Shown in pieces: positions 2,656-12,098 of a stretch of 12,098 nucleotides of DNA (positions are counted from its first letter, which is position 1; each line of letters begins with the position of its first letter). Both the position numbers and the translations under genes were made by a program. Source of the DNA: Ruminococcus sp. (GTDB taxonomy: Bacteria; Bacillota_A; Clostridia; Oscillospirales; Ruminococcaceae); the NCBI GenBank assembly GCA_017418765.1, contig JAFOMV010000034.1:1-12098 (forward strand), in the 5' to 3' direction. The notes below the pieces were generated by a model, which saw nothing but the letters and a program-made list of their open reading frames with translations, was not told the DNA's origin and did not search any database.

Positions 2656-3207
2656 CTACTTTACTTCAAAAATTCTTATATTTTCAGCAGAAACATCTGA
2701 CTGATCTATAATTATATCTTTTATCGAAGCAGCCTGAGCCTTGTCAAGGCCTTCTGTCTTCACGACCACCTTTGCAGATTCACCGTCAAGATAGGCAACA
2801 CAGTCTTTAAACCCCTGAGCTTTCACCAGTGATTCAATAGTTCCCTCACTTTCTATAAGCTTTGATACCTCAACTGCATCGATCGCCTTTGCAACTTGTT
2901 CGTCCTCTGTAACATCACCTCCGCCTATCATAGCCTGCAGTGTCTGTATAGCCTCATCACGGTTGTTCATCTTGTCAAGCCTTGCCTGAGCAAAATAATC
3001 GTCAGCGGCAGGCTGTGCTTCGGCATTTACAAATTCAGTCTCGCCGTAATTCAACTCATCAGCCTCGTCCGAGACCGATACTATCTTATCGGGTTCTTTT
3101 ATGTCAGGGGCAGTCGTATAGTTTATGTACACTGCAACCGCCAGCATAAGTGTCAGGCATGACATTATTATCTGTTTCTTTCCGATTATAATTGATGGCT
3201 TTTTCAT
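2656..3207 (-). CDS. spoIIIAH: Stage III sporulation protein AH
   Basis: SpoIIIAH is the mother-cell membrane protein whose extracellular YscJ/FliF-like domain binds forespore SpoIIQ across the two engulfing membranes. The product is 183 residues from the ATG at 3207: a short basic N-terminus, one membrane segment (about 13-30), a variable acidic linker, the conserved helix DYFAQARLDKMNNRDEAIQTLQAMI, and a ring-building domain to the end (VVVKTEGLDKAQAASIKDIIIDQSDVSAENIRI). A longer frame from a TTG at 3228 is possible. I reject it because AAAGGAG (3216-3222) is ideally placed 8 bases before 3207. It starts 13 bases after spoIIIAG and is the last gene of the operon. Confidence 0.95.
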   Translation of the reverse strand: MKKPSIIIGKKQIIMSCLTLMLAVAVYINYTTAPDIKEPDKIVSVSDEADELNYGETEFVNAEAQPAADDYFAQARLDKMNNRDEAIQTLQAMIGGGDVTEDEQVAKAIDAVEVSKLIESEGTIESLVKAQGFKDCVAYLDGESAKVVVKTEGLDKAQAASIKDIIIDQSDVSAENIRIFEVK

Positions 3208-3220
3208 ATAAATATCTCCT

Positions 3221-3751
3221 TTATTCAAGTGTTGTTACATATATCCTGTTTGTAGGGATATCAAGTGCAGCTGATGCTGCTTTATAAATTCTTTCACACA
3301 CAGCAGGACTTTTACACCCTGAAGCTGCTATCACTGCCCCGCAAACCTCAGGCTGTTCTATTTTTTCGATAAGAGCAGTTTTCCCGCTTCCGTTTCCTGT
3401 CATTACATATTTTTCTTCCACTTCTTTCCTTTTATCTGATTCTGAGCGTCTTTCCTCTGCGGCATATACGTATCTCTCTCCGCTGCCAACATTAAGATAT
3501 ACCTTTACTTCCCCTGCCCCGTCTATTCCTTTCAGAAATGTCTCAAGCCTCCTTTCTGTCTCCGAGCAATAGCTCTCAGCAGCGGCAGCAGATATACCTT
3601 TCTCTTTTGCAGAAGTATCAATATCATCCTTTTTGTCAGGAATAACAGATGACAGCATAATAAGCGCTAATCCTGCTATTCCGCATACAGCTACAGCCGA
3701 TGAAAGCTTCTTTTCGTTTCTCATGTCTTTTAGTTTATTCAGTATATCCAT
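3221..3751 (-). CDS. spoIIIAG: Stage III sporulation protein AG
   Basis: SpoIIIAG forms a large ring in the intermembrane space of the sporangium, related to the rings of type III secretion systems. The 176-residue product has a cytoplasmic N-terminus, one membrane segment (about 18-35, AVAVCGIAGLALIMLSSV) and an extracellular domain with GAGEVKVYLNVGSGERYVYAAEE (78-100) and the family-typical C-terminus PEVCGAVIAASGCKSPAVCERIYKAA followed by LDIPTNRIYVTTLE. It is shorter than the roughly 229 residues of the Bacillus protein, mostly in the linker. GGAGG lies 6 bases before the ATG, and the start overlaps the spoIIIAF end by 17 bases. Confidence 0.95.
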   Translation of the reverse strand: MDILNKLKDMRNEKKLSSAVAVCGIAGLALIMLSSVIPDKKDDIDTSAKEKGISAAAAESYCSETERRLETFLKGIDGAGEVKVYLNVGSGERYVYAAEERRSESDKRKEVEEKYVMTGNGSGKTALIEKIEQPEVCGAVIAASGCKSPAVCERIYKAASAALDIPTNRIYVTTLE

Positions 3752-4199
3752 AAACTACCTCCGTCTCATTACCAAGACAGCCTTTTATGATCTCTGCCGA
3801 TTTTTCAATATTATCTGCATTTACAGTGACCTTAGTAATAATTATGCTGCCATCATCAGAAATATTAACATCCACTGAAACTTTACTGCATTTTATCCCT
3901 GATGCTTGTATCTGCTGCTGAAGCACCTGTGAAATATTATCGGCTGTCTGCTCTGCCAGGGCACTTTTGTAAGCTTCACGAGAATAGTTATTCTCCAACA
4001 GCTCACGTTCTGATAATTCAGGCAGTTGAACTTCAAATCCGCCTTTAACAAACGGTGTTAACAGCACAATAACGAAAACCATTTTCAGTATAAGCTCCAT
4101 CCTTTTTCTCAGCACAGACACAGCTGTAAGTTCCCTTACAGCCCATATGCCTGCCGATAATATACAGACTGAGAGCACTGCTGATTTAAGAGCATCCAT
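3735..4199 (-). CDS. spoIIIAF: Stage III sporulation protein AF
   Basis: SpoIIIAF is a membrane protein of the SpoIIIA complex. The 154 residues show two N-terminal membrane segments (about 4-21 and 36-53, the second with KMVFVIVLLTPFVKG) and a soluble domain from about residue 60 to the end. That domain ends in a segment of beta and alpha elements (IIITKVTVNADNIEKSAEIIKGCLG) like the small ring-forming folds of AG and AH. The length is about that expected of the family. AGGAGAG precedes the ATG by 6 bases, and the start is 14 bases after spoIIIAE. No motif is missing as far as I can judge. Confidence 0.92.
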   Translation of the reverse strand: MDALKSAVLSVCILSAGIWAVRELTAVSVLRKRMELILKMVFVIVLLTPFVKGGFEVQLPELSERELLENNYSREAYKSALAEQTADNISQVLQQQIQASGIKCSKVSVDVNISDDGSIIITKVTVNADNIEKSAEIIKGCLGNETEVVYGYTE

Positions 4200-4213
4200 C
4201 TTCTACTCTCCTG

Positions 4214-5302
4214 TCAGTCGCTGCAGCAGTTCAGCAATATACCGCTGCATAGTACGAACACTACTGAAAAACACACAAGAACGCTTTGTGCTATTGCAAG
4301 TCCGCAGTCCAAAGCATTAAGCAGCTTGACAACAGGGCCAACAGAGAATAATTCAGCTGCAGCAGAGGATATCCACATGACCAGCCTGTATATCATTATC
4401 TCTATAACAGGCGGAAGCATTATGATCATCAGTGCAGTTGTTCCAATAGTTCCGATAGATGTCCTGATTATATCAAAACTGCCGCGTACGGTGGAGTATG
4501 CATCAGAAACTGCGCCTCCGACTATAGGTACAAATCCCGATAAAGCAAACTTGACTGTTTTAGTAGCGACTGAATCCGCCTTGCCTGCTATGGTACACTT
4601 CATCGTAACAAATCCTGTGAACAAAGTCATAATAGCTGTCATCCCCCAAACTATGATCTTTTTCAGCAAAGACGTAAGCTTTTCGAGTGATGTATCGGAA
4701 AATATGCTGCCTGATATTGCAAGGACCGTTACTATGCTTATAACAGGCATTAAGTAATTGTCAGTAACAGTCACCATCAGCTCAGACATTGCAAGGATAA
4801 GGATATTATATATGCCCGCCGCAGAAATGTTCCCCATTGCAGCTGTAACACCTGCAAATACAGGAACAAAAACTGTAATAAAACCGCCTGTCCTTCCCAC
4901 AGATCCCAGTGCTCTGCCATAAACTTCAAATAATGCAGGAAATATGACAGTTACTGAGGAAAGAACACATATCATTCCGTAGATATCCTTATCTGAACTA
5001 TGCAATGCGTCCTTTACAAATGCCGAAAGGATAATAACCGTAATAATTGCAGCAAGCAGCTTAACGGGAGCTGCTGTCATGCCCGATAGCCTTTCTTTCA
5101 TCTCGGATATCAGGAAAGAAATATCAGGGTCAGATATTTGTTCAGAAGAAACTCCAATATCACTTTCTCTGAGTATATCATCAATATCTTCATATATCTC
5201 ATGACAGGAAAAGTCGATATTATCCTCAGCTGAGACACATACAGGCACGCATATCAGAATCAATAAGATAAACGGAACAATAAATATGATAATTCTTTTC
5301 AT
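4214..5302 (-). CDS. spoIIIAE: Stage III sporulation protein AE
   Basis: SpoIIIAE is the large polytopic membrane component of the SpoIIIA complex and a candidate for its export channel. The 362-residue product begins with a signal-peptide-like stretch (MKRIIIFIVPFILLILICVPVCVSA, 1-25), then a short acidic extracellular segment, then repeated hydrophobic stretches to the end. Family-like features are VFAGVTAAMGNISAAGIYNILILAMSELM, the GFVTMKCTIAGKADSVATKTVKFALSGFVPIVGGAVSDAYSTV stretch, and the C-terminal LLNALDCGLAIAQSVLVCFSVVFVLC. It is slightly shorter than the Bacillus protein (about 399 residues). AAAGGAG overlaps the end of spoIIIAD about 13 bases before the ATG, a rather long spacing. 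The gap after spoIIIAD is 4 bases. Confidence 0.96.
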   Translation of the reverse strand: MKRIIIFIVPFILLILICVPVCVSAEDNIDFSCHEIYEDIDDILRESDIGVSSEQISDPDISFLISEMKERLSGMTAAPVKLLAAIITVIILSAFVKDALHSSDKDIYGMICVLSSVTVIFPALFEVYGRALGSVGRTGGFITVFVPVFAGVTAAMGNISAAGIYNILILAMSELMVTVTDNYLMPVISIVTVLAISGSIFSDTSLEKLTSLLKKIIVWGMTAIMTLFTGFVTMKCTIAGKADSVATKTVKFALSGFVPIVGGAVSDAYSTVRGSFDIIRTSIGTIGTTALMIIMLPPVIEIMIYRLVMWISSAAAELFSVGPVVKLLNALDCGLAIAQSVLVCFSVVFVLCSGILLNCCSD

Positions 5303-5306
5303 TCAG

Positions 5307-5696
5307 CTACATCATCTCCTTTACCATATCCACCACTACCCTGAGTAAGGGCATTGATATAAAAGTCAGTGAAGCTCGTCCCCATAATTCTGATGCTGAA
5401 GCCATTGCATTCTCTCCGCTGTCAATGCAGATATTCTTTGTAATATCTGTTATTATACATATAGCTGCTGCTTTGAAAATAATGGCATAGTATCCTTCAT
5501 CAAGACCTGCCGAAACAAAAAGTTCCCTTATTTCATCAGTTACAGGATACATGAATTCCGCAGCACCTGCGATCACAGCTGCACATACAAATATCGTTAG
5601 AAGGACTGAGTGTTCTCTGCAATATTGTTTGAGTAAAACTGCAATGACCGATGCACATATGCAGAATAACGAGACCTGAAAACAGCTGTTTACCAT
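5307..5696 (-). CDS. spoIIIAD: Stage III sporulation protein AD
   Basis: A 129-residue integral membrane protein homologous to SpoIIIAD of Bacillus (about 133 residues). It has an N-terminal membrane segment (VSLFCICASVIAVLLKQY), a second hydrophobic stretch (VLLTIFVCAAVIAGAAEF), a conserved central helix region (YAIIFKAAAICIITDITKNICIDSGENAMASASELWGRASL) and a final hydrophobic segment (LTFISMPLLRVVVDMV). The DSGENAMASASELWGR segment corresponds to the conserved DAGQGAIASKIELAGK of Bacillus. The start overlaps the spoIIIAC stop by 7 bases. AC and AD are thought to form membrane elements of the complex. Confidence 0.93.
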   Translation of the reverse strand: MVNSCFQVSLFCICASVIAVLLKQYCREHSVLLTIFVCAAVIAGAAEFMYPVTDEIRELFVSAGLDEGYYAIIFKAAAICIITDITKNICIDSGENAMASASELWGRASLTFISMPLLRVVVDMVKEMM

Positions 5697-5887
5697 AATC
5701 CAAACACCGTTTTTACAGTTTCAAACAATCCGCCGATCTCCTCAACTATTATAACAAGAACAACGATAAGACCTGCAAGGGTAGTCATCATCGCCTGTTC
5801 CTCACGCTCAGCTCTTTTCAACACAAGATTCAGCACAGCTACGATTATTCCCGTACCTGCAATTTTAAAGATGAGGTCTATGTCCAT
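5690..5887 (-). CDS. spoIIIAC: Stage III sporulation protein AC
   Basis: A 65-residue, two-helix membrane protein matching SpoIIIAC (68 residues in Bacillus). The N-terminus MDIDLIFKIAGTGIIVAVLNLVLK aligns with the Bacillus start, and the second membrane stretch is MTTLAGLIVVLVIIVEEIGGLF, ending KTVFGLW. An in-frame GTG at 5896 would add three residues. I prefer the ATG at 5887 because AAGGTGA lies just before it and family similarity begins there. It lies 14 bases after spoIIIAB and overlaps spoIIIAD by 7 bases. Confidence 0.92.
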   Translation of the reverse strand: MDIDLIFKIAGTGIIVAVLNLVLKRAEREEQAMMTTLAGLIVVLVIIVEEIGGLFETVKTVFGLW

Positions 5888-5901
5888 TGTCTTCACCTTC
5901 C

Positions 5902-6390
5902 CTAAACTATCACTATTCCTGCCATAAGTCCGAATAATATGCCTATAGACCTGTAAAGGCGTCCGTATCGGATGTATTCACTGCTGCGTCTGCTTCTTAT
6001 TTCGCTTGCAGATTCGGTAAGTGAATCAAGCATAGCCGATTGCCCCTCGATATCAGAAGTACCCAGTTCTCTGCAAAATCCTGAAAGCAGCCTTTTTTCT
6101 TCATCATTGATCTCTGCTTTTTCAACACATCCGCAAAGCAATGTGTTAATATCTTCAGTTACGGGGATAATATCGGGCATTGTCTTAAAAATAGGAGATA
6201 TGTCTTTCAGCTCATTGATTATATCTTCTGTATCGCAGCAATTACATCTTATCAAAGTGCTTGTACGCCTTAACATAGAAATGATCTCATCGCATATTTC
6301 TACTTTTTTTCTGTATGCTGCACCTTTTGATATCCCCCATAGTCCTCCGCATATAACAATAAGACATATCCCCACCGCTTTAACAAACAT
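5902..6390 (-). CDS. spoIIIAB: Stage III sporulation protein AB
   Basis: SpoIIIAB resembles the GspF-like platform proteins of secretion systems and probably partners the ATPase SpoIIIAA. The 162-residue product has an N-terminal membrane segment (about 4-20), a cytoplasmic helical domain (from about 25 to 140) with the family motif CRELGTSDIEGQ, and a C-terminal membrane segment preceded by YIRYGRLYRSIG (IGILFGLMAGIVIV to the end). Normal length is about 170. TAAGGAG lies 8 bases before the ATG inside spoIIIAA, and the two genes overlap by 11 bases, so translation is probably coupled. Confidence 0.95.
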   Translation of the reverse strand: MFVKAVGICLIVICGGLWGISKGAAYRKKVEICDEIISMLRRTSTLIRCNCCDTEDIINELKDISPIFKTMPDIIPVTEDINTLLCGCVEKAEINDEEKRLLSGFCRELGTSDIEGQSAMLDSLTESASEIRSRRSSEYIRYGRLYRSIGILFGLMAGIVIV

Positions 6391-7288
6391 TTATTAGGCT
6401 CCTTATCTCTTTTATCTTCCACCCCTGCCTGCTGAGAAAGACAGCTTTCTCAAAATATCCTGCCTCAAGAAGTTCACGTGAGAATTTACGGCTGATCAGA
6501 TCATCCATGTTTTCGGCGTGGAGCGTTGCTATAAACTTAACACCGCACCCAACTCCGTCACGGATAGCGGCTGCGTCACTGCTGTCAGCGATCTCATCGC
6601 AGAAAATGTAATCAGGAGACAATGTGCGTATAGCACAGATTATACTGTCATGTCTATTCTTGTCTGTAATAATATCTGTAAGATATCCCACATCGTTAGT
6701 TGGACATCCTTTAACAACAGCTGCAATTTCGTTTTTTTCATCTATAAGGGTACACTTCGATATATTTCCGAATGACCTGCATATATCCCGAAGAAGCGTT
6801 GTCTTTCCGGAATTTACGGCTCCGCAGATAAGAGCACTTCTGCCGTATACTGAACTGAAAAGTTCATCGGAACAACCAGTCACCTGACGAGCTATACGAA
6901 AATTTATCGATGAGATGTCCCTTATCATTCCTTTATCTCCCTCTGAGTATGTACCGCTAAGACCTGCACGAACCCCGTTTTCAAGTACAAAGCAGCCAAC
7001 AGCCAATTCTCTTTCATGGCTGTAAACAGAATATTTGCTTATCCTTGTAAGTATCTCCCTCATATGCGCAGAGTTAACAGCAATACATTTCGAGTTGAAA
7101 ACCGATGTAATGTCACCGTTTCTGCACAGATATTTTATACCTTCACTGCTAACTATAGCAATGCCTCTGCCGTTATACAACCGTATCTCAGAAATATTGT
7201 TTCCGGCTTTCTTCTCTGCTGAGATAAGGGCACTTCTTATATCCTCAGCCATGTAGTCACATACTACACCAAAGCTTGTCCTTGACAT
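6380..7288 (-). CDS. spoIIIAA: Stage III sporulation protein AA, ATPase
   Basis: SpoIIIAA is the cytoplasmic secretion-type ATPase of the SpoIIIA complex in the mother cell. The 302 residues (Bacillus about 307) contain a Walker A motif GAVNSGKTT (156-164), the DEKNEI segment (183-188, equivalent to DERSEI), a Walker B region DYIFCDEIAD (226-235), and the TLHAEN box (255-260). No catalytic residue appears lost. A frame from a GTG at 7300 is possible. I chose the ATG at 7288 because the near-perfect Shine-Dalgarno AAAGGAGGTGA (7297-7307) includes that GTG and sits 8 bases before 7288. This is the first gene of the eight-gene operon. Confidence 0.95.
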   Translation of the reverse strand: MSRTSFGVVCDYMAEDIRSALISAEKKAGNNISEIRLYNGRGIAIVSSEGIKYLCRNGDITSVFNSKCIAVNSAHMREILTRISKYSVYSHERELAVGCFVLENGVRAGLSGTYSEGDKGMIRDISSINFRIARQVTGCSDELFSSVYGRSALICGAVNSGKTTLLRDICRSFGNISKCTLIDEKNEIAAVVKGCPTNDVGYLTDIITDKNRHDSIICAIRTLSPDYIFCDEIADSSDAAAIRDGVGCGVKFIATLHAENMDDLISRKFSRELLEAGYFEKAVFLSRQGWKIKEIRSLINVC

Positions 7289-7311
7289 AAGCCTGTTCAC
7301 CTCCTTTGTAC

Positions 7312-7424: not shown

Positions 7425-8321
7425 TTATTCCTTTACACCGCCAAGAGCAACACCAGCAATGATGAATCTTGAAAGGAGTATGTAAATGATTACGATAGGA
7501 AGAATTGAAAGTGCAATTGCAAGATATACTGCACCAAAATCAGTGAACTTATCAGAAGCCTGCATAGCAGAGATCATCATAGGAAGTGTCTTCTGCTTGA
7601 AGTTAGAGCTGATAAGAATCATGTTTGGTGTATAGAAGTTGTTCCAGCTTGCTATGAAGACGAAGATAGACTGTACAGCAATAGCCGGCTTCATCATAGG
7701 AAGTGCAATTGAAAGGAAAGTTCTGAACTCAGAGCATCCGTCAATACGTGCAGCTTCAACAATCTCTTTCGGGAATGAAGACTTCATGTAAGAACTCATG
7801 AAGTATACAACTGCAGGTGCTGCGATAGCAGGGATGATAAGAGGCCAGTAAGTATCTGTAAGATGAAGCTTCAGCATGAATGCTACGAAACCTGCTGATG
7901 TTACCTGCATAGGCACCATCATTACAAGAAGTATGATAGTATATGAAATATCTTTCAGTTTAAAATCATAAACCTCGATACCATATGCTGTCATAGCTGA
8001 GAAAAATACAGTAAGTACTGTTGAACAAATTGTGATAAAAAAGCTGTTTCTGTAACCGATAAGGACATTGAATATAGATAGATAGTTAACATCCTTGAAT
8101 ACCTTATCAATATTCTTGCCGAGGTTTGAACCGGGTACAAATGAAATACCGTTAACGATCTCTGTAGAACTTCTTGTAGCATTGATTAAAAGAATGTAAA
8201 TAGGAAGCAGACAGATTATAGTCAGAATAATGAACCAGATGGTCAGTATAATAGACTTTGTTCTGAGCTTAGCAGTATAGTTGTCCTTGGCCTCGCCATA
8301 TGTTTTGCTCATTTTACTCAT
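7425..8321 (-). CDS. Sugar ABC transporter permease, MalG/UgpE-like
   Basis: Inner-membrane permease of a CUT1-type carbohydrate importer; it pairs with the upstream MalF-like subunit. The 298 residues have a membrane segment at about 23-47, several more between 95 and 175, the ATPase-docking EAA loop EAARIDGCSEFRTFLSIALPMMKP (189-212), the SWNNFY motif (225-230) and the typical end RFIIAGVALGGVKE. The start at 8321 overlaps the upstream stop as ATGA, and GGAGG (8331-8335) lies 9 bases before it; an alternative ATG three codons later is less well placed. No ATPase gene follows, since a terminator comes next. An MsmX-like shared ATPase from elsewhere would be needed. The substrate cannot be told from sequence. 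Confidence 0.95.
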   Translation of the reverse strand: MSKMSKTYGEAKDNYTAKLRTKSIILTIWFIILTIICLLPIYILLINATRSSTEIVNGISFVPGSNLGKNIDKVFKDVNYLSIFNVLIGYRNSFFITICSTVLTVFFSAMTAYGIEVYDFKLKDISYTIILLVMMVPMQVTSAGFVAFMLKLHLTDTYWPLIIPAIAAPAVVYFMSSYMKSSFPKEIVEAARIDGCSEFRTFLSIALPMMKPAIAVQSIFVFIASWNNFYTPNMILISSNFKQKTLPMMISAMQASDKFTDFGAVYLAIALSILPIVIIYILLSRFIIAGVALGGVKE

Positions 8322-9364
8322 ACACCAAAACCTCCAAACTGCTTAGAAGCAAACTTCTCCTGTTTTGCTTTCTTCCTATTCTGCTTCTTCTTAGCGATAG
8401 CATCCTTGTCTCTTGTCATATAGAATGCGATACATCCGAGAATAAGAGTAATGAAGAACAGTATAACAGATGCTGCACCTGCGTAACCCATCTTAGGATC
8501 TACCTGATCGTGGAAATATTCGTAGATGTATACCGCAACTGTTTTGAGGTTATTGCTGACCTTATTAGGATCCTTATGATAGAGATAAGGAATATCGAAC
8601 ATCTGGAGACCACCGATCATAGATGTTACAAGAGTGTAAGCAAGGATAGGGCTCAGCAGAGGGAGAGTTATCTTCCAGAAAGTCTGCATACCTGTAGCAC
8701 CGTCGATGCTTGCAGCTTCGAACAGTGATGGGTTGAGACCCTGAATACCTGACATAAGCATGATCATGGTATTACCGAACCACATCCATGTCTGGATAAA
8801 CATAACAACACCACGGGACTGCCACATACCCGTAACGAACTTGACTGTATCGTATTTTTCGCCGGGCAGTTCCTTTACGATCCCAATTTTATGGAGAAGA
8901 AGGTTGATAGCACCGGGAAGATTCTGTGCTTCACCGCAGAGCTGAAGGAAAAGAACAGCAACTGAAGCGGCTGTAATGATGTTAGGAAGGTACATTACTA
9001 CCTTGAAGAAGCCCTTTGCTGGTATCTTAGTATTTGCCTCTGTGAACCATACAGCAAGTGTAAGAGACAGAATGAGCTGAGGAATAAAGTTACCTACCCA
9101 AAGTATGACAGTATTTTTTAAAGACATGAAAAAAGTTTTGCTGACGTTTTTGGCAGTACGGTTACCGACAGCAAAAAGAATAGTCTTATAGTTATCGAGA
9201 CCAACGAAATGAGAATCCTTATTATCCTGGAAAGAAAGGATAAAAGTATTGATCAGTGGCCATAACTGGAAAAAGAAATAAACAAGAAAGAAAGGCAGAA
9301 TGAAAAGATAGCCATATTTAGCATAGCTGATTGATTTAATTCGCCTCTGTGCAGCTGATGCCAT
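8318..9364 (-). CDS. Sugar ABC transporter permease, MalF/UgpA-like
   Basis: First membrane subunit of the CUT1-type importer. The 348 residues have an N-terminal membrane segment (about 18-45, ending in LSFQD and followed by FVGLDNY, typical of the family), further segments between 80 and 205, the EAA loop EAASIDGATGMQTFWKITLP (216-235) and a last segment (about 297-316). The C-terminal tail of about 30 residues is very rich in lysine and is longer than usual, presumably cytoplasmic. A GTG two codons earlier is in frame. I chose the ATG at 9364 because GGAGG stands 8 bases before it. The gene follows the binding protein after a 101-base gap with a strong hairpin, and overlaps the next permease by 4 bases. 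Confidence 0.95.
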   Translation of the reverse strand: MASAAQRRIKSISYAKYGYLFILPFFLVYFFFQLWPLINTFILSFQDNKDSHFVGLDNYKTILFAVGNRTAKNVSKTFFMSLKNTVILWVGNFIPQLILSLTLAVWFTEANTKIPAKGFFKVVMYLPNIITAASVAVLFLQLCGEAQNLPGAINLLLHKIGIVKELPGEKYDTVKFVTGMWQSRGVVMFIQTWMWFGNTMIMLMSGIQGLNPSLFEAASIDGATGMQTFWKITLPLLSPILAYTLVTSMIGGLQMFDIPYLYHKDPNKVSNNLKTVAVYIYEYFHDQVDPKMGYAGAASVILFFITLILGCIAFYMTRDKDAIAKKKQNRKKAKQEKFASKQFGGFGV

Positions 9365-9404
9365 ACACACACCCTCCCATATAGTGAATATTTGATAAAT
9401 ATGC

Positions 9405-9434
9405 GCCTACGGAATACATCAGTATTCCGTAGGC
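9405..9434 (-). other. Perfect 13-bp intercistronic hairpin
   Basis: GCCTACGGAATAC (9405-9417) pairs without mismatch with GTATTCCGTAGGC (9422-9434) around a 4-base loop. It lies between the binding-protein stop and the first permease start. On the minus strand it is followed by GCATATTTATC, not a T run, so it looks like a partial terminator or an mRNA-stabilising structure. Such structures commonly let the binding protein be made in excess over the permeases. Confidence 0.85.
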
Positions 9435-9465
9435 AACAATCTTAGGAATTTAAAATATAACGGAA

Positions 9466-10944
9466 TTATTCATCCCAATCGAGTGATGTGATGTCCTCAG
9501 ATACGAGATCCTTGAATGCCTCAACAGTGTCTTCCCATGAAGCGCCGCCCTCGAGGTATTCTTCCCTAACAGCGTTGATGAAGTCAGTCTTAACTGTTGC
9601 ATCATACTCTGTGATAAGGCCGTTGAAGTTGATCTGCTTAGCATTCTCAGCAAGAGCAGCGTAGAAGTTCTGGCCGCCCATGTTGTCTGTGATCTTCTTG
9701 TTGAATACTGTATCAGATGAGATAAGGTCATCCATAACCTTGCTGTTGTTTACATACTCAGGCTTAGATGTTGCATATGCAGCCATCTGAGCTTCGTCTG
9801 ATGTAGCAGATACGATGAAGTCACGAGCTTCTTCACCGTTGTCAGTAGCAGGATTAACAACGATCCATGTACCGCCCCAGTAGAATGGCTGAGGTCCCTC
9901 ACAAACAGCCCACTTGCCGTATGTAGCGCCGCCTTCGCCGCCTGCAGCATCGAGAGCGAATCCGCCGAAGCCCCAAGTTGATACGAAGTAACCCATGCAA
10001 GTATCATTTGTACCAGCTGCTGTCCACTCGTCAGACCACTGGGTGTTCTTTGTGATACCGTCGTTATCCCAGAGTTCCTTAGCTGTCTTAGCGAAGTCCT
10101 CACAGAAATCATCGATCTGGAGCTTGTTGTCAACTACCCAAGGAGCTGTACGTCCGCAAGCGTAAGCCTGCCACATACCGCCGAGTGTATCAGCAAGAGC
10201 TGTCTTGTGATCTGATGCCTCAGCAACTTCCTTAGCAGCAGCAACGAACTTATCCCAGTCGCCGATCTTTTCCTGCATAGCCTCAGGATCCTCAACGCCG
10301 AGGAAATCCTTAGCGAGGTCAGATCTGTAGTAGAAGCCGCCTGCTGCAGCCTGCCATGAAACGCCCTTACGAACGCCGTTCTTATCCTTACCGATCTCAT
10401 CAGTATAGCTGTAGATGTTAGAGAAATCGCTGTCGCCAAGACCGAGCTTATCGAGAGCAAGTGTCTTCTCATCATCGTTGATGTACTTGAGAGCCCAGTC
10501 AGCTTCACAGAAGTAAACATCGAGGTCATCGCCGCTCTTGAAGAGGTTGTCATACTTCTCAGCTGCGTCGCCGCCGCCTACACCGAAGTTGATGAACTTG
10601 ATGCTTGAATCAGCTGTATTATCTGTAACTGCTGCTGCGTCAAGGCCCTTCCACTGAGCGATGAGGTAAGGAACATCGTCTGCGTTCCAAGCAGCAACTG
10701 TGAATGTATCTCCGCCTGTGCCTACAGAAGCGTCGATCTCACCTGTGCTCTCTGTTGCTTCAGAAGACTCTTCGTCAGAAGACTCCTCCTCAGATGATTC
10801 TTCCTCAGATGACTCCTCAACTGAAGACTCTGGCTGTGAAGATGAAGATGAAGATGACTTCTCGTCAGTGCCACAGCTTGCGAATGCAGTAGCTGACATT
10901 GCGAGAGTAGCTACTAATGCTAATGTTTTCTTAAGTGTGTTCAT
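9466..10944 (-). CDS. Sugar ABC transporter substrate-binding lipoprotein
   Basis: Extracellular solute-binding protein (family 1 type) that would deliver a carbohydrate to the two downstream permeases. The 492 residues begin with a lipoprotein signal peptide (MNTLKKTLALVATLAMSATAFAS, lipid Cys at 24; the lipobox FASC has Phe at -3, slightly atypical). A low-complexity Ser/Glu linker (about 30-68) tethers the domain to the membrane. The mature domain starts at about TFTVAAWNADDVPYLIAQW (80-98) and contains the family-like inter-lobe segment FYWGGTWIVVNPATDNGEEARDFI. AAGGAGG lies 9 bases before the ATG. It is first in the operon, preceded by an unusually long leader. The substrate is unknown; a plant-derived oligosaccharide is a guess from the dockerin neighbour. 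Confidence 0.93.
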   Translation of the reverse strand: MNTLKKTLALVATLAMSATAFASCGTDEKSSSSSSSQPESSVEESSEEESSEEESSDEESSEATESTGEIDASVGTGGDTFTVAAWNADDVPYLIAQWKGLDAAAVTDNTADSSIKFINFGVGGGDAAEKYDNLFKSGDDLDVYFCEADWALKYINDDEKTLALDKLGLGDSDFSNIYSYTDEIGKDKNGVRKGVSWQAAAGGFYYRSDLAKDFLGVEDPEAMQEKIGDWDKFVAAAKEVAEASDHKTALADTLGGMWQAYACGRTAPWVVDNKLQIDDFCEDFAKTAKELWDNDGITKNTQWSDEWTAAGTNDTCMGYFVSTWGFGGFALDAAGGEGGATYGKWAVCEGPQPFYWGGTWIVVNPATDNGEEARDFIVSATSDEAQMAAYATSKPEYVNNSKVMDDLISSDTVFNKKITDNMGGQNFYAALAENAKQINFNGLITEYDATVKTDFINAVREEYLEGGASWEDTVEAFKDLVSEDITSLDWDE

Positions 10945-11019
10945 TAGATTTTTCCTCCTTAAATATGTATATCATACCTCTTGCGGGTAAGATATTCGTG
11001 AATAATAAATAATAATGGT

Positions 11020-11373
11020 GTGTTACGGATCCCTCAAGGGCTTGTTCAGCCCGTGTGAATGTCCTCACCCAAGGCTAAAACATCACCCTTCGTTCACCGT
11101 TTGCGACTGCTATTTGGCGCAGTCTATAGAACATGGACCTTACGTCCGTTTGTTTCAGTACAAAGACAATCAAAGCATTACGGATTACCCAAATATGAAG
11201 CCTTGGTTTCATATGCTACGGCGGCACGTGAATGGGGATGTGTTCCGCAGGCACGAGCCATTGCTTTCGCATTTCGCCTTGGCAGTCAAACCCGTGTGAG
11301 ATTCATCAGGGATACTGCCAAGTACGGCACTATCCAAGCCCCTTCTCACTACAATGTTTCGGACTGCTTTTGT
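11020..11373 (-). ncRNA. Candidate structured RNA or long 5' leader of the importer operon
   Basis: This GC-richer island between AT-rich flanks starts at the predicted start point of a strong promoter and has no credible gene. On the minus strand it can form several hairpins: GGATA-G-TGCC with GGCA-G-TATCC (11310-11335, 9 pairs and one G-G mismatch) enclosed by GTGAGA with TCTCAC (11344-11349 and 11296-11301); ATATGAA with TTCATAT (11193-11214); GACTGC with GCAGTC (11105-11124); GGAC with GTCC (11135-11147); GTGA-TGT with ACA-t-TCAC (about 11055-11088); and GGGCT with AGCCC (11038-11052). I do not recognise RNase P, tmRNA, 6S, SRP RNA, a T-box or a known riboswitch. It could be a leader, an independent RNA, or a decayed mobile element. 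The ends are estimates. Confidence 0.5.
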
Positions 11374-11379
11374 ACTACA

Positions 11380-11408
11380 AATATACCGTATTTTTTGTCT
11401 AAAGTCAA
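11380..11408 (-). promoter_or_regulatory. Strong sigma-A type promoter (P2) upstream of the RNA island and importer operon
   Basis: On the minus strand TTGACT (11403-11408) and TATATT (11380-11385) are separated by exactly 17 bases. The start point would be near 11373, giving a leader of about 430 bases before the binding-protein ATG. I find no comparably good promoter between the island and the gene. Confidence 0.8.
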
Positions 11409-11433
11409 TAATCTGAATCGTTCCTTAATCTTT

Positions 11434-11460
11434 TTTGAACACTTTGTACACTTTCAACAC
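11434..11460. repeat. Three tandem 9-bp repeats, candidate operator
   Basis: Three adjacent 9-mers, TTTGAACAC, TTTGTACAC and TTTCAACAC on the plus strand (GTGTnnAAA on the minus strand), run without a gap. They lie 25 bases upstream of the P2 -35 box and just downstream of the start point of P1. That is a natural position for an activator of P2 or a repressor of P1. No known regulator box is recognised. Confidence 0.7.
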
Positions 11461-11473
11461 GGCTTTTTTAGCA

Positions 11474-11504
11474 ATTATAACACAAATAACAGTCTCAATT
11501 TCAA
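11474..11504 (-). promoter_or_regulatory. Possible upstream promoter (P1)
   Basis: TATAAT (11474-11479) is preceded by TGT on the minus strand, giving an extended -10. A TTGAAA (11499-11504) lies 19 bases upstream, longer than ideal but tolerable with an extended -10. Transcription would start near 11467, immediately before the triple repeat, and read through P2. Confidence 0.5.
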
Positions 11505-11521
11505 AAAGTTACAAAACGGTA

Positions 11522-11540
11522 AAGAGACAATATGCCTCTT
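11522..11540 (-). terminator. Weak terminator candidate after the dockerin gene
   Basis: On the minus strand AAGAGGC pairs with GTCTCTT (7 pairs, one G-T wobble) around a 5-base loop. It is followed by TACCGTTTTG, a poor T run. It is the only plausible transcript-end structure I see between the dockerin gene stop and promoter P1. Confidence 0.3.
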
Positions 11541-11627
11541 ATTACACAATGAAAAGCTGAATCTTTTATTGCAATTGCCTAAGCCTCACAAAAAACAATG
11601 CTGTATTTGGTCAAATTTATAGCAGAA

Positions 11628-12098
11628 TTATACAGGTCGTACATAACCATTATTTTTTACTGATTCTCTTGCGTAGTAAGTTATTATGTCTGTGGCATCC
11701 CTTCCATCGATAACATCATTCTCATCAGTGTCACAGTATGGGATCACTTCGCTGTCAAGAACACCTTTTCCTCCTGATGATATCTGAGCATAATGTGTAA
11801 GCACAAGTGTAGCATCTCTGCCGTCAACTATCCCGTTTTTGTCGGCATCACGCTTTAAAAGTATAGTCAGCAGCTTTACCTTTGAGGCAAATTCAGTATC
11901 GGCTGCTTTTTTTCTTATTATATAATGTGTTTTCGATTCAAGCTCAGGCGAATATGCGCTAAATGTATACAAGACTGAATTAAGCTCTTTCTCATCAGAG
12001 ATACCATAGCTGTCAGACATCAGCTTTACAAATTTTTCCCTTTCATTTTCATATTTGTAATCTTCAAACCACTGACCTATAATATCTTTCTCAGTTTC
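11628..12098 (-). CDS. Dockerin-bearing protein, C-terminal part (cut by window edge)
   Basis: The frame is open to the window edge at 12098, leaving 156 residues of a longer protein. The last 75 residues or so are a type I-like dockerin, the calcium-binding module that docks secreted proteins onto cohesins. The two repeats are DADKNGIVDGRDATLVLTHYAQ (84-105) and DTDENDVIDGRDATDIITYYAR (123-144). In each repeat the Asp/Asn at loop positions 1, 3, 5, 9 and 12 needed for calcium are present. The preceding 80 residues (helical, charged, with IIGQWFEDYKYENEREKFVKLM) match nothing I recognise and show no catalytic motif. An internal ATG at 12020 is not the start, since the frame and the sequence style continue upstream of it. 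A secreted protein with an N-terminal signal peptide is expected off the edge. Confidence 0.88.
   Translation of the reverse strand, partial: ETEKDIIGQWFEDYKYENEREKFVKLMSDSYGISDEKELNSVLYTFSAYSPELESKTHYIIRKKAADTEFASKVKLLTILLKRDADKNGIVDGRDATLVLTHYAQISSGGKGVLDSEVIPYCDTDENDVIDGRDATDIITYYARESVKNNGYVRPV

Follow-up and report, generated by a model that had tools for sequence, protein, structure and literature searches.

A candidate structured 5′ leader RNA with a near-invariant hexaloop upstream of a sugar importer gene in Ruminococcus

Our analyses suggest that a hairpin-rich island in a 12,098-nucleotide stretch of Ruminococcus DNA (the window) is the body of a new, gene-specific, cis-acting 5′ leader RNA, which precedes the gene for the substrate-binding protein (SBP) of a carbohydrate ABC importer across the genus. 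According to this reading, to which we assign a probability of about 60%, a trans factor would bind at a hexaloop of the leader and the stability or processing of the message would be affected. We infer that the leader regulates SBP, and it probably tunes the amount of SBP made. The leader sequence diverges fast, while its structure recurs across the genus, in about 97 of the 101 leaders examined.

The structured region is flanked on one side by the SBP gene (10944-9466, minus strand) and on the other by an ORF that weakly resembles a dockerin (12020-11628). The nearest solved chain to SBP was the cellobiose-binding 8bfy (E 1.6e-5); no Pfam match was obtained at 1e-3, NCBIfam matches lay only far below cut-off, and by eye the N-terminus was lipoprotein-like. 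Behind the SBP gene, the same strand encodes the importer's two permeases (9370-8318 and 8321-7425, together 7425-9370), which carry BPD_transp_1 and resemble GlcT/U, UgpA/E and MalF/G with NCBIfam scores that are all below cut-off. No ATPase gene was seen alongside the importer genes (7425-10944), and the ATPase is likely a shared one encoded elsewhere. Behind them, a spoIIIA sporulation cluster (2656-7300, minus strand; AA, AE and AH by Pfam) adjoins NusB, Asp23 and a TsaD-like gene. The dockerin similarity of the minus-strand ORF at 11628-12020 was weak (Pfam E 0.0078, below cut-off); dockerin-like tails, identified by eye, also precede the loci of several relatives.

The sequence-only reading had described a 350-base island with a sharp change in composition at 11020-11373. 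The change is real, with a GC content of 0.54-0.56 at 11200-11349 and of 0.29-0.36 in the flanks, but the island is not uniform, since GC falls to 0.40 at 11100-11199. The TTGACT-17-TATATT promoter reported at its edge is present on the minus strand (11408-11380). Promoter-like sites were no commoner here than in shuffled sequences (5 vs 4.2), so this promoter carries weight because it is conserved in relatives and not because of site frequency. Transcription would start near 11376-11373, with 435 nt of leader between the TATATT box and the ATG. The unit was correctly detected but drawn too short: the structured leader (10945-11379, minus strand) runs from about 11376 to the Shine-Dalgarno sequence AAGGAGG (10960-10954). 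Upstream of the promoter, a block at 11409-11595 (minus strand) is conserved in many relatives and contains, among others, the elements TTTACCGTTTTGTAACTTTT and GTTGAAA-TGTACA, which are possible activator or operator sites.

In order to compare leaders, a protein scan retained 80 of 162 relatives, 29 of them Ruminococcus loci at 56% identity or more; the Ruminococcus loci include R. flavefaciens 007c, ATCC 19208, ND2009, SAb67 and XPD3002. An SBP search over 125 genus genomes gave a match in 123, some of them non-orthologues. The final set of 110 upstream regions comprised the window, 30 loci and 79 more from genus genomes, and includes a few paralogues. Of these regions, 102 had a recognisable promoter of the TTGAC...TATATT type (in L162 by a looser pattern), and the other eight were left out of the counts. 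The paralogue L191 was additionally left out of the hexaloop-spacing and ORF counts (n=101). Leader lengths in the 102 promoter-bearing regions ranged from 197 to 569 nt, ATG included, and L085 and L131 (215 and 197 nt) seem reduced. BLASTN detected the promoter block (approximately window 11365-11595) in 26 loci but the island proper in just three, L005, L027 and L006; at the same place in the other loci, common motifs were found within diverged sequence. An interpretation of the island as a rare insertion, based on its detection by BLASTN in only two of 20 relatives, was overturned by these motifs at the same place in other species.

From 5′ to 3′, the leader is arranged as P0, H-A, H-B, P1 enclosing H-D, H-E and the Shine-Dalgarno sequence. 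The leader together with the first 25 gene bases (454 nt) was predicted to fold at -131.7 kcal/mol, whereas 100 dinucleotide shuffles gave a mean of -116.2 (sd 5.95) with one as good, a z of -2.61 that taken alone is weak evidence. The earlier reading had listed only local stems; these are present, and they are accompanied by the long-range stem P0 (11374-11362 with 11171-11159), which closes the 5′ domain and in the window joins the transcript 5′ end to a strand about 200 nt further on. The 5′ strand of P0 consists of the first transcribed bases, often CAAAAGCAATAC, and its partner, for instance GTATTGCT, lies just before H-A. In the window clade its 12 pairs were 93.2% paired with one double change. 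Among 37 other leaders, taken from the 87 as those with a pattern-recognised H-A and not including the window, the P0 duplex reached -15.4 kcal/mol with its own partner vs -11.1 with species-permuted partners (0/2000, z -8.6), whereas pairing of that 5′ end with a control region gave a z of -0.7 (457/2000).

Within the 5′ domain, the nested stem singled out from the window alone was borne out by the five-species comparison: its 10 pairs at 11335-11325/11320-11310 showed double changes in 5/10, and the 6-bp outer stem at 11349-11344/11301-11296 in 2/6. These stems (11349-11296) are among the best-supported pairs of the five-species consensus. Two inner stems (11295-11289/11186-11180 and 11282-11278/11193-11189) were 100% and 96% paired in the window clade, with one and no pairs showing double changes, respectively. 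H-A (11135-11147, stem 11147-11144 with 11138-11135) was 100% paired without double changes in the window clade. H-A takes the form ATTAC-x-AGAC-loop-GTCT-x-GTAAT; its equivalent helices in 41 leaders were 95.0 and 95.7% paired and had double changes in all four inner pairs. The H-B hairpin (11105-11124) was 100% paired in the five species, with double changes in 2/6 pairs. P1, an outer stem of many forms, surrounds H-D in the window with an outer part at 11099-11096/11029-11026 and an inner part at 11090-11086/11040-11036. Its own duplex was stronger than that of exchanged strands in 87 leaders (z -9.0, 0/2000) and, in a separate run, in 88 (0/1000), the 90 leaders having been reduced to 87 and 88, respectively, by removal of near-identical ones. 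Finally, H-E is an AU-rich hairpin (10969-10995) just before the Shine-Dalgarno sequence, whose arms paired better with each other than with permuted ones in the 87 leaders (-5.34 vs -4.39; 0/2000, z -5.5). In the window clade it was 91.8% paired, with a double change in 1/10 pairs. A DNA inverted repeat is another possible reading of H-E, despite the co-variation of its arms.

Compensatory changes at the stems, whose absence had been named beforehand as an argument against the RNA, were found above the level of shuffles in two alignments. The covariance model R1 was built from 12 leaders and contains 18 pairs. When 41 leaders were aligned on it, 92.3% of cells were paired vs 84.4% in shuffled alignments and 25-49% for slid structures; 12/18 pairs were double-changed (5.6 in shuffles) with 57 changed cells (14.7 in shuffles), and the covariation score was 0.275 vs 0.130, all measures at 0/500. 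These 41 loci were preselected by R1 score and include the 12 of the training set. Since this alignment leans towards the model, the permutation tests of P0, P1 and H-E, which use raw sequences, matter more. For the five species of the window clade, a MAFFT alignment (A5) yielded a 97-pair consensus in which 18 pairs had double changes. Scored on 77 chosen pairs, with 20 left out and the structure derived from that same alignment, 94.3% of cells were paired (89.3% shuffled, 35-42% slid) and 14 pairs had changed on both sides vs 5.6 in shuffles. Over the full length, four of five measures gave 0/500 and the fifth 2/500. Covariation, permutation and clade tests thus agree in pointing to a conserved aptamer-like fold.

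The window leader itself matched R1 weakly (16.2 bits, E 0.077), and of its relatives, G005 and G021 went unmatched in the genus scan while G006 had one match at E 0.24, away from SBP. We place the window in the family because the promoter, the gene, the helix order, the GAGGACATTC hairpin, the spacing to the ATG and H-E all agree; its assignment rests on motif, order and position and not on the R1 score.

The most constant part of this architecture is the hexaloop of H-D (11055-11068), which reads GGACAT in the window (11064-11059) and GNACAW as consensus. The strict motif GAGNACANTC was present in 90/102 leaders. Among the 12 leaders that lack it, seven carry the loop on a different stem of 4 bp or more and L162 on one of 3 bp, L085 and L188 look by eye like variants, L131 has no loop and L191 is the paralogue. 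A fixed rule (a GNACAN loop closed by three or more unbroken pairs and located 80-165 nt upstream of the ATG) was satisfied by 90/101 leaders, L162 among them, vs 44/2020 mononucleotide shuffles, the type of shuffle used for the hexaloop-stem, hexaloop-rule and ORF tests. Eight of the 11 failures have the strict motif but fewer than three unbroken closing pairs, the others being L085, L188 and L131. The stem had double changes in 4/5 pairs across 41 leaders and none in the window clade itself, and closing pairs were swapped from A-U to G-C in L188 and from G-C to A-U in L128 and L157. The stem of H-D thus appears replaceable and the loop hardly so. The distance from the hexaloop to the ATG had a median of 107 nt (IQR 105-111, sd 10), whereas leader length had an sd of 75. 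Because the loop is near-invariant, its stem varies freely and its distance to the start codon is set, H-D has the appearance of a binding site, presumably for a trans factor.

A receptor for the hexaloop within the RNA was not found in a loop-loop pseudoknot search of 90 leaders. The complement of NACAW occurred in 21/90 own leaders (23%) vs 25% of others; the corresponding frequencies were 7% vs 7% for GNACAW and 30% vs 19% for GNACA, an excess that we did not find convincing. Eight leaders (L102-L104, L106, L110, L111, L115 and L138) carry a second GAGTACATTC in the 5′ domain. Its stem is interrupted, with a bulged G by eye, and none counts as a second hairpin of five unbroken pairs; it is possibly an internal duplicate of the hexaloop hairpin.

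We then examined where the leader occurs. Of 125 genus genomes, 46 had R1 hits at E<0.005 (48 hits in all), a fraction that shows the model to be insensitive, and in 45 of these 46 a hit was at SBP. Comparison of coordinates with SBP places put 47/48 hits before SBP or its broken-off start. The remaining hit falls within an ABC-exporter coding gene of G086, and a weaker one in G120 is likewise within a coding gene. In G106 the hits are on two contig ends and in G052 on both strands of one place. Of the weaker hits away from SBP (E 0.008-1), four were looked at: L199 is within a coding gene, and L204-L206 were without an SBP match. Of 396 family genomes, six had an R1 hit at E<=0.02, two of them genus members (G026 and G121); beside the non-genus match in G161 (E 3.6e-4) SBP was not found. 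The leader RNA is apparently limited to the genus Ruminococcus, as judged mainly from inspection of 23 of the 43 listed family SBP matches, 22 of which are non-genus while L217 is a genus member.

The full set of elements was found in none of the 22 inspected non-genus upstream regions. Among the inspected family regions, nine have a TTGAC...TATATT-type promoter, and the AU-rich hairpin is retained, as judged by eye, in many. In L214 a GCACAT hairpin stands at -101, where by eye an upstream gene ends, and in L227 and L234 such hexaloops lie further upstream. L030, a 41% SBP relative labelled Ruminococcus sp., showed by eye only the promoter, a P0-like hairpin and H-E. The leader family may have grown out of an older, minimal leader. 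In seven other family genomes (L212, L213, L216, L219, L221, L222 and L233), the SBP homologue stands by eye directly behind a LacI-type regulator-like gene, and these homologues have only the AU-rich hairpin before the Shine-Dalgarno sequence.

The island had been said to contain no gene and no recognised RNA family. A plus-strand ORF of 187 codons had no Pfam match, and 31 of the 47 gaps among the five closest leaders were of one base and eight of two, so coding is disfavoured in the window clade, where gaps are mostly not in threes. In 82/101 leaders there is an ATG ORF that closes and has 20 codons or more, modestly above the 65% seen in mononucleotide shuffles, and the count of internal matches to a Shine-Dalgarno sequence plus start was 18. 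The leaders may possibly encode a short upstream peptide, though the indels of the window clade oppose a kept frame. At the gathering cut-offs, the 4227 Rfam 15 families gave no hit in the window and Rfam gave none in 20 relatives. Relaxed thresholds produced two chance-level hits around the window leader (E<=10) and, in nine relatives, only four hits (E<=5), all in L018 outside the leader.

The sequence-only reading had left undecided whether the island is a leader of the importer or a free-standing RNA. Double changes, own-strand complementarity, the near-fixed spacing to the ATG, the 47/48 hits at SBP and the lack of a called terminator between RNA and gene favour a cis-acting leader; a free-standing RNA was not supported. 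Comparison supports the architecture of this leader: behind the conserved promoter, the RNA 5′ end pairs forward (P0) and closes the variable 5′ domain, H-A and H-B come next, P1 then presents H-D with its GNACAW hexaloop, and H-E precedes the Shine-Dalgarno sequence directly. In the mechanism that we propose, the hexaloop would be recognised by a factor acting in trans, in all likelihood an RNA-binding protein or ribonuclease, a metabolite being less likely. Acting with the folded body and H-E, this factor would set the lifetime of the SBP message or its cut site, and the binding protein would be made in an amount suited to sugar supply. A strong hairpin of 13-14 bp lies between SBP and the first permease (9404-9435, minus strand; z -4.39), in a scan in which terminator-like sites were not above chance. 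The position of H-E by the Shine-Dalgarno sequence and this hairpin behind SBP fit a control of message processing or stability, and H-E would provide the hairpin near the 5′ side of a stabilised message that characterises systems resembling selective RNA processing and stabilisation (SRPS). It is conceivable, and we put it forward only tentatively, that the leader represents a new signal-responsive class for sugar capture in Ruminococcus, in which the GNACAW hairpin docks a genus-wide RNA-binding protein or ligand and relays sugar status to the SBP message without a terminator or a Shine-Dalgarno switch.

The closest competitor is a passive stabiliser or insulator of the mRNA, for which any stable fold would suffice; H-E would then cap the 5′ end of an SBP message after processing and raise SBP over permease, as SRPS does. 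It agrees with the persistence, by eye, of H-E without the other elements in many non-genus homologues, and with the strong hairpin after SBP (9435-9404), which resembles the internal terminators of Ruminiclostridium as far as these are described in the accessible part of PMC9045158. Such a role would make a near-invariant GNACAW at a near-fixed distance to the ATG needless, as well as the second motif copy in the eight leaders of the L102-L138 type, and we regard it as doubtful.

A riboswitch is less probable still. Here the 5′ domain or the H-D region would bind cellodextrin, a sugar phosphate or another signal and switch SBP transcription or translation, a proposal prompted by the large conserved fold and near-invariant loop before a transporter gene and by the 5′ UTR of a cellulosomal cluster of C. 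papyrosolvens, which the available text of PMC5815224 presents as a speculated riboswitch. The expression platform was not seen in our predictions. The minus strand of the window leader yielded no terminator-like site, so that the intrinsic terminator which a transcription attenuator would place between promoter and gene appears to be missing, and a run of six T within 110-25 nt before the gene occurred in 10/102 leaders. The predicted mean unpaired probability of the Shine-Dalgarno sequence in 102 leaders was 0.45 in the whole leader, 0.47 when the sequence upstream was shuffled and 0.54 for the isolated 3′ end. The window leader gave 0.49, and masking of this site was discarded as showing no effect beyond that of shuffled upstream sequence. 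With neither a terminator nor extra Shine-Dalgarno masking predicted, a classical attenuator or Shine-Dalgarno switch is unlikely. In addition, the strong R1 matches precede one gene only and the 5′ domain differs strongly between clades by eye.

Still more improbable is a trans-acting small RNA cut from the leader, with the SBP gene as its host transcript. The architecture closed from the first transcribed bases by P0 and the large size of the leaders (197-569 nt) would suit it, but no terminator was called in the window leader, the distance to the ATG is near-fixed and, at E<0.005, the only R1 hit apart from SBP is the one within a coding gene. A decayed gene, a piece of a transposon or a divergent housekeeping RNA such as 6S or RNase P, suggested by a GC content above the flanks, the lack of an Rfam match and the failure to find 6S in G005 and G006 (the closest to the window of eight tested genomes), can be practically dismissed: gaps are mostly not in threes and stems carry double changes, each matching genome has one match (2/20 by BLASTN, with which the R1 genus scan agrees), BLASTN of the island against plasmids and phages gave none, 6S was found elsewhere over cut-off in 6/8 genomes, and an RNase P-like RNA lies elsewhere in 5/8, below the B-type model cut-off.

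Systems with some of these features have been described. The xyl-doc cellulosomal cluster of C. papyrosolvens has a long 5′ UTR whose block on transcription is lifted by corn stover, and the authors speculate that it is a riboswitch (PMC5815224, from the portion of the article at hand). Like the leader described here, that UTR is long and structured, belongs to a cellulolytic Clostridium and precedes genes for plant-fibre utilisation; according to the same portion it serves another gene, and its transcription block involves candidate-terminator stem-loops, which were not found here. In Ruminiclostridium cellulolyticum, intergenic stem-loops or internal terminators raise SBP over permease, as stated in the consulted sections of PMC9045158. 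The SRPS and internal terminators of cellulolytic clostridia (PMC4423207, PMC9045158) are similar in that hairpins set the ratios of operon products, including SBP over permease. In the excerpts of these papers they lie between genes or in 3′ regions, whereas the present leader has several helices and a near-invariant loop and stands before the first gene. The candidate leaders of ribosomal protein genes (PMC8040213) are likewise structured, tied to a single gene and presumed regulatory; compared with them, as outlined in the text available from that source, the present leader serves a transport gene, matches no Rfam model, is larger and has a variable 5′ domain. No description of a Ruminococcus SBP leader RNA was found in the open-licence literature, judged by title or abstract start. 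Structured leaders are therefore known as a kind, and this architecture and loop are new as far as the Rfam and literature searches reach.

Ruminococcus species are fibre degraders of the rumen and gut, and we found no study of RNA-level control in this genus in the open-licence literature. A leader of about 200-570 nt with a near-invariant loop would be a concrete entry point, as it predicts a specific binding partner and offers a site for mutation. If the proposed reading is true, the uptake of sugars from plant fibre would be linked to post-transcriptional control.
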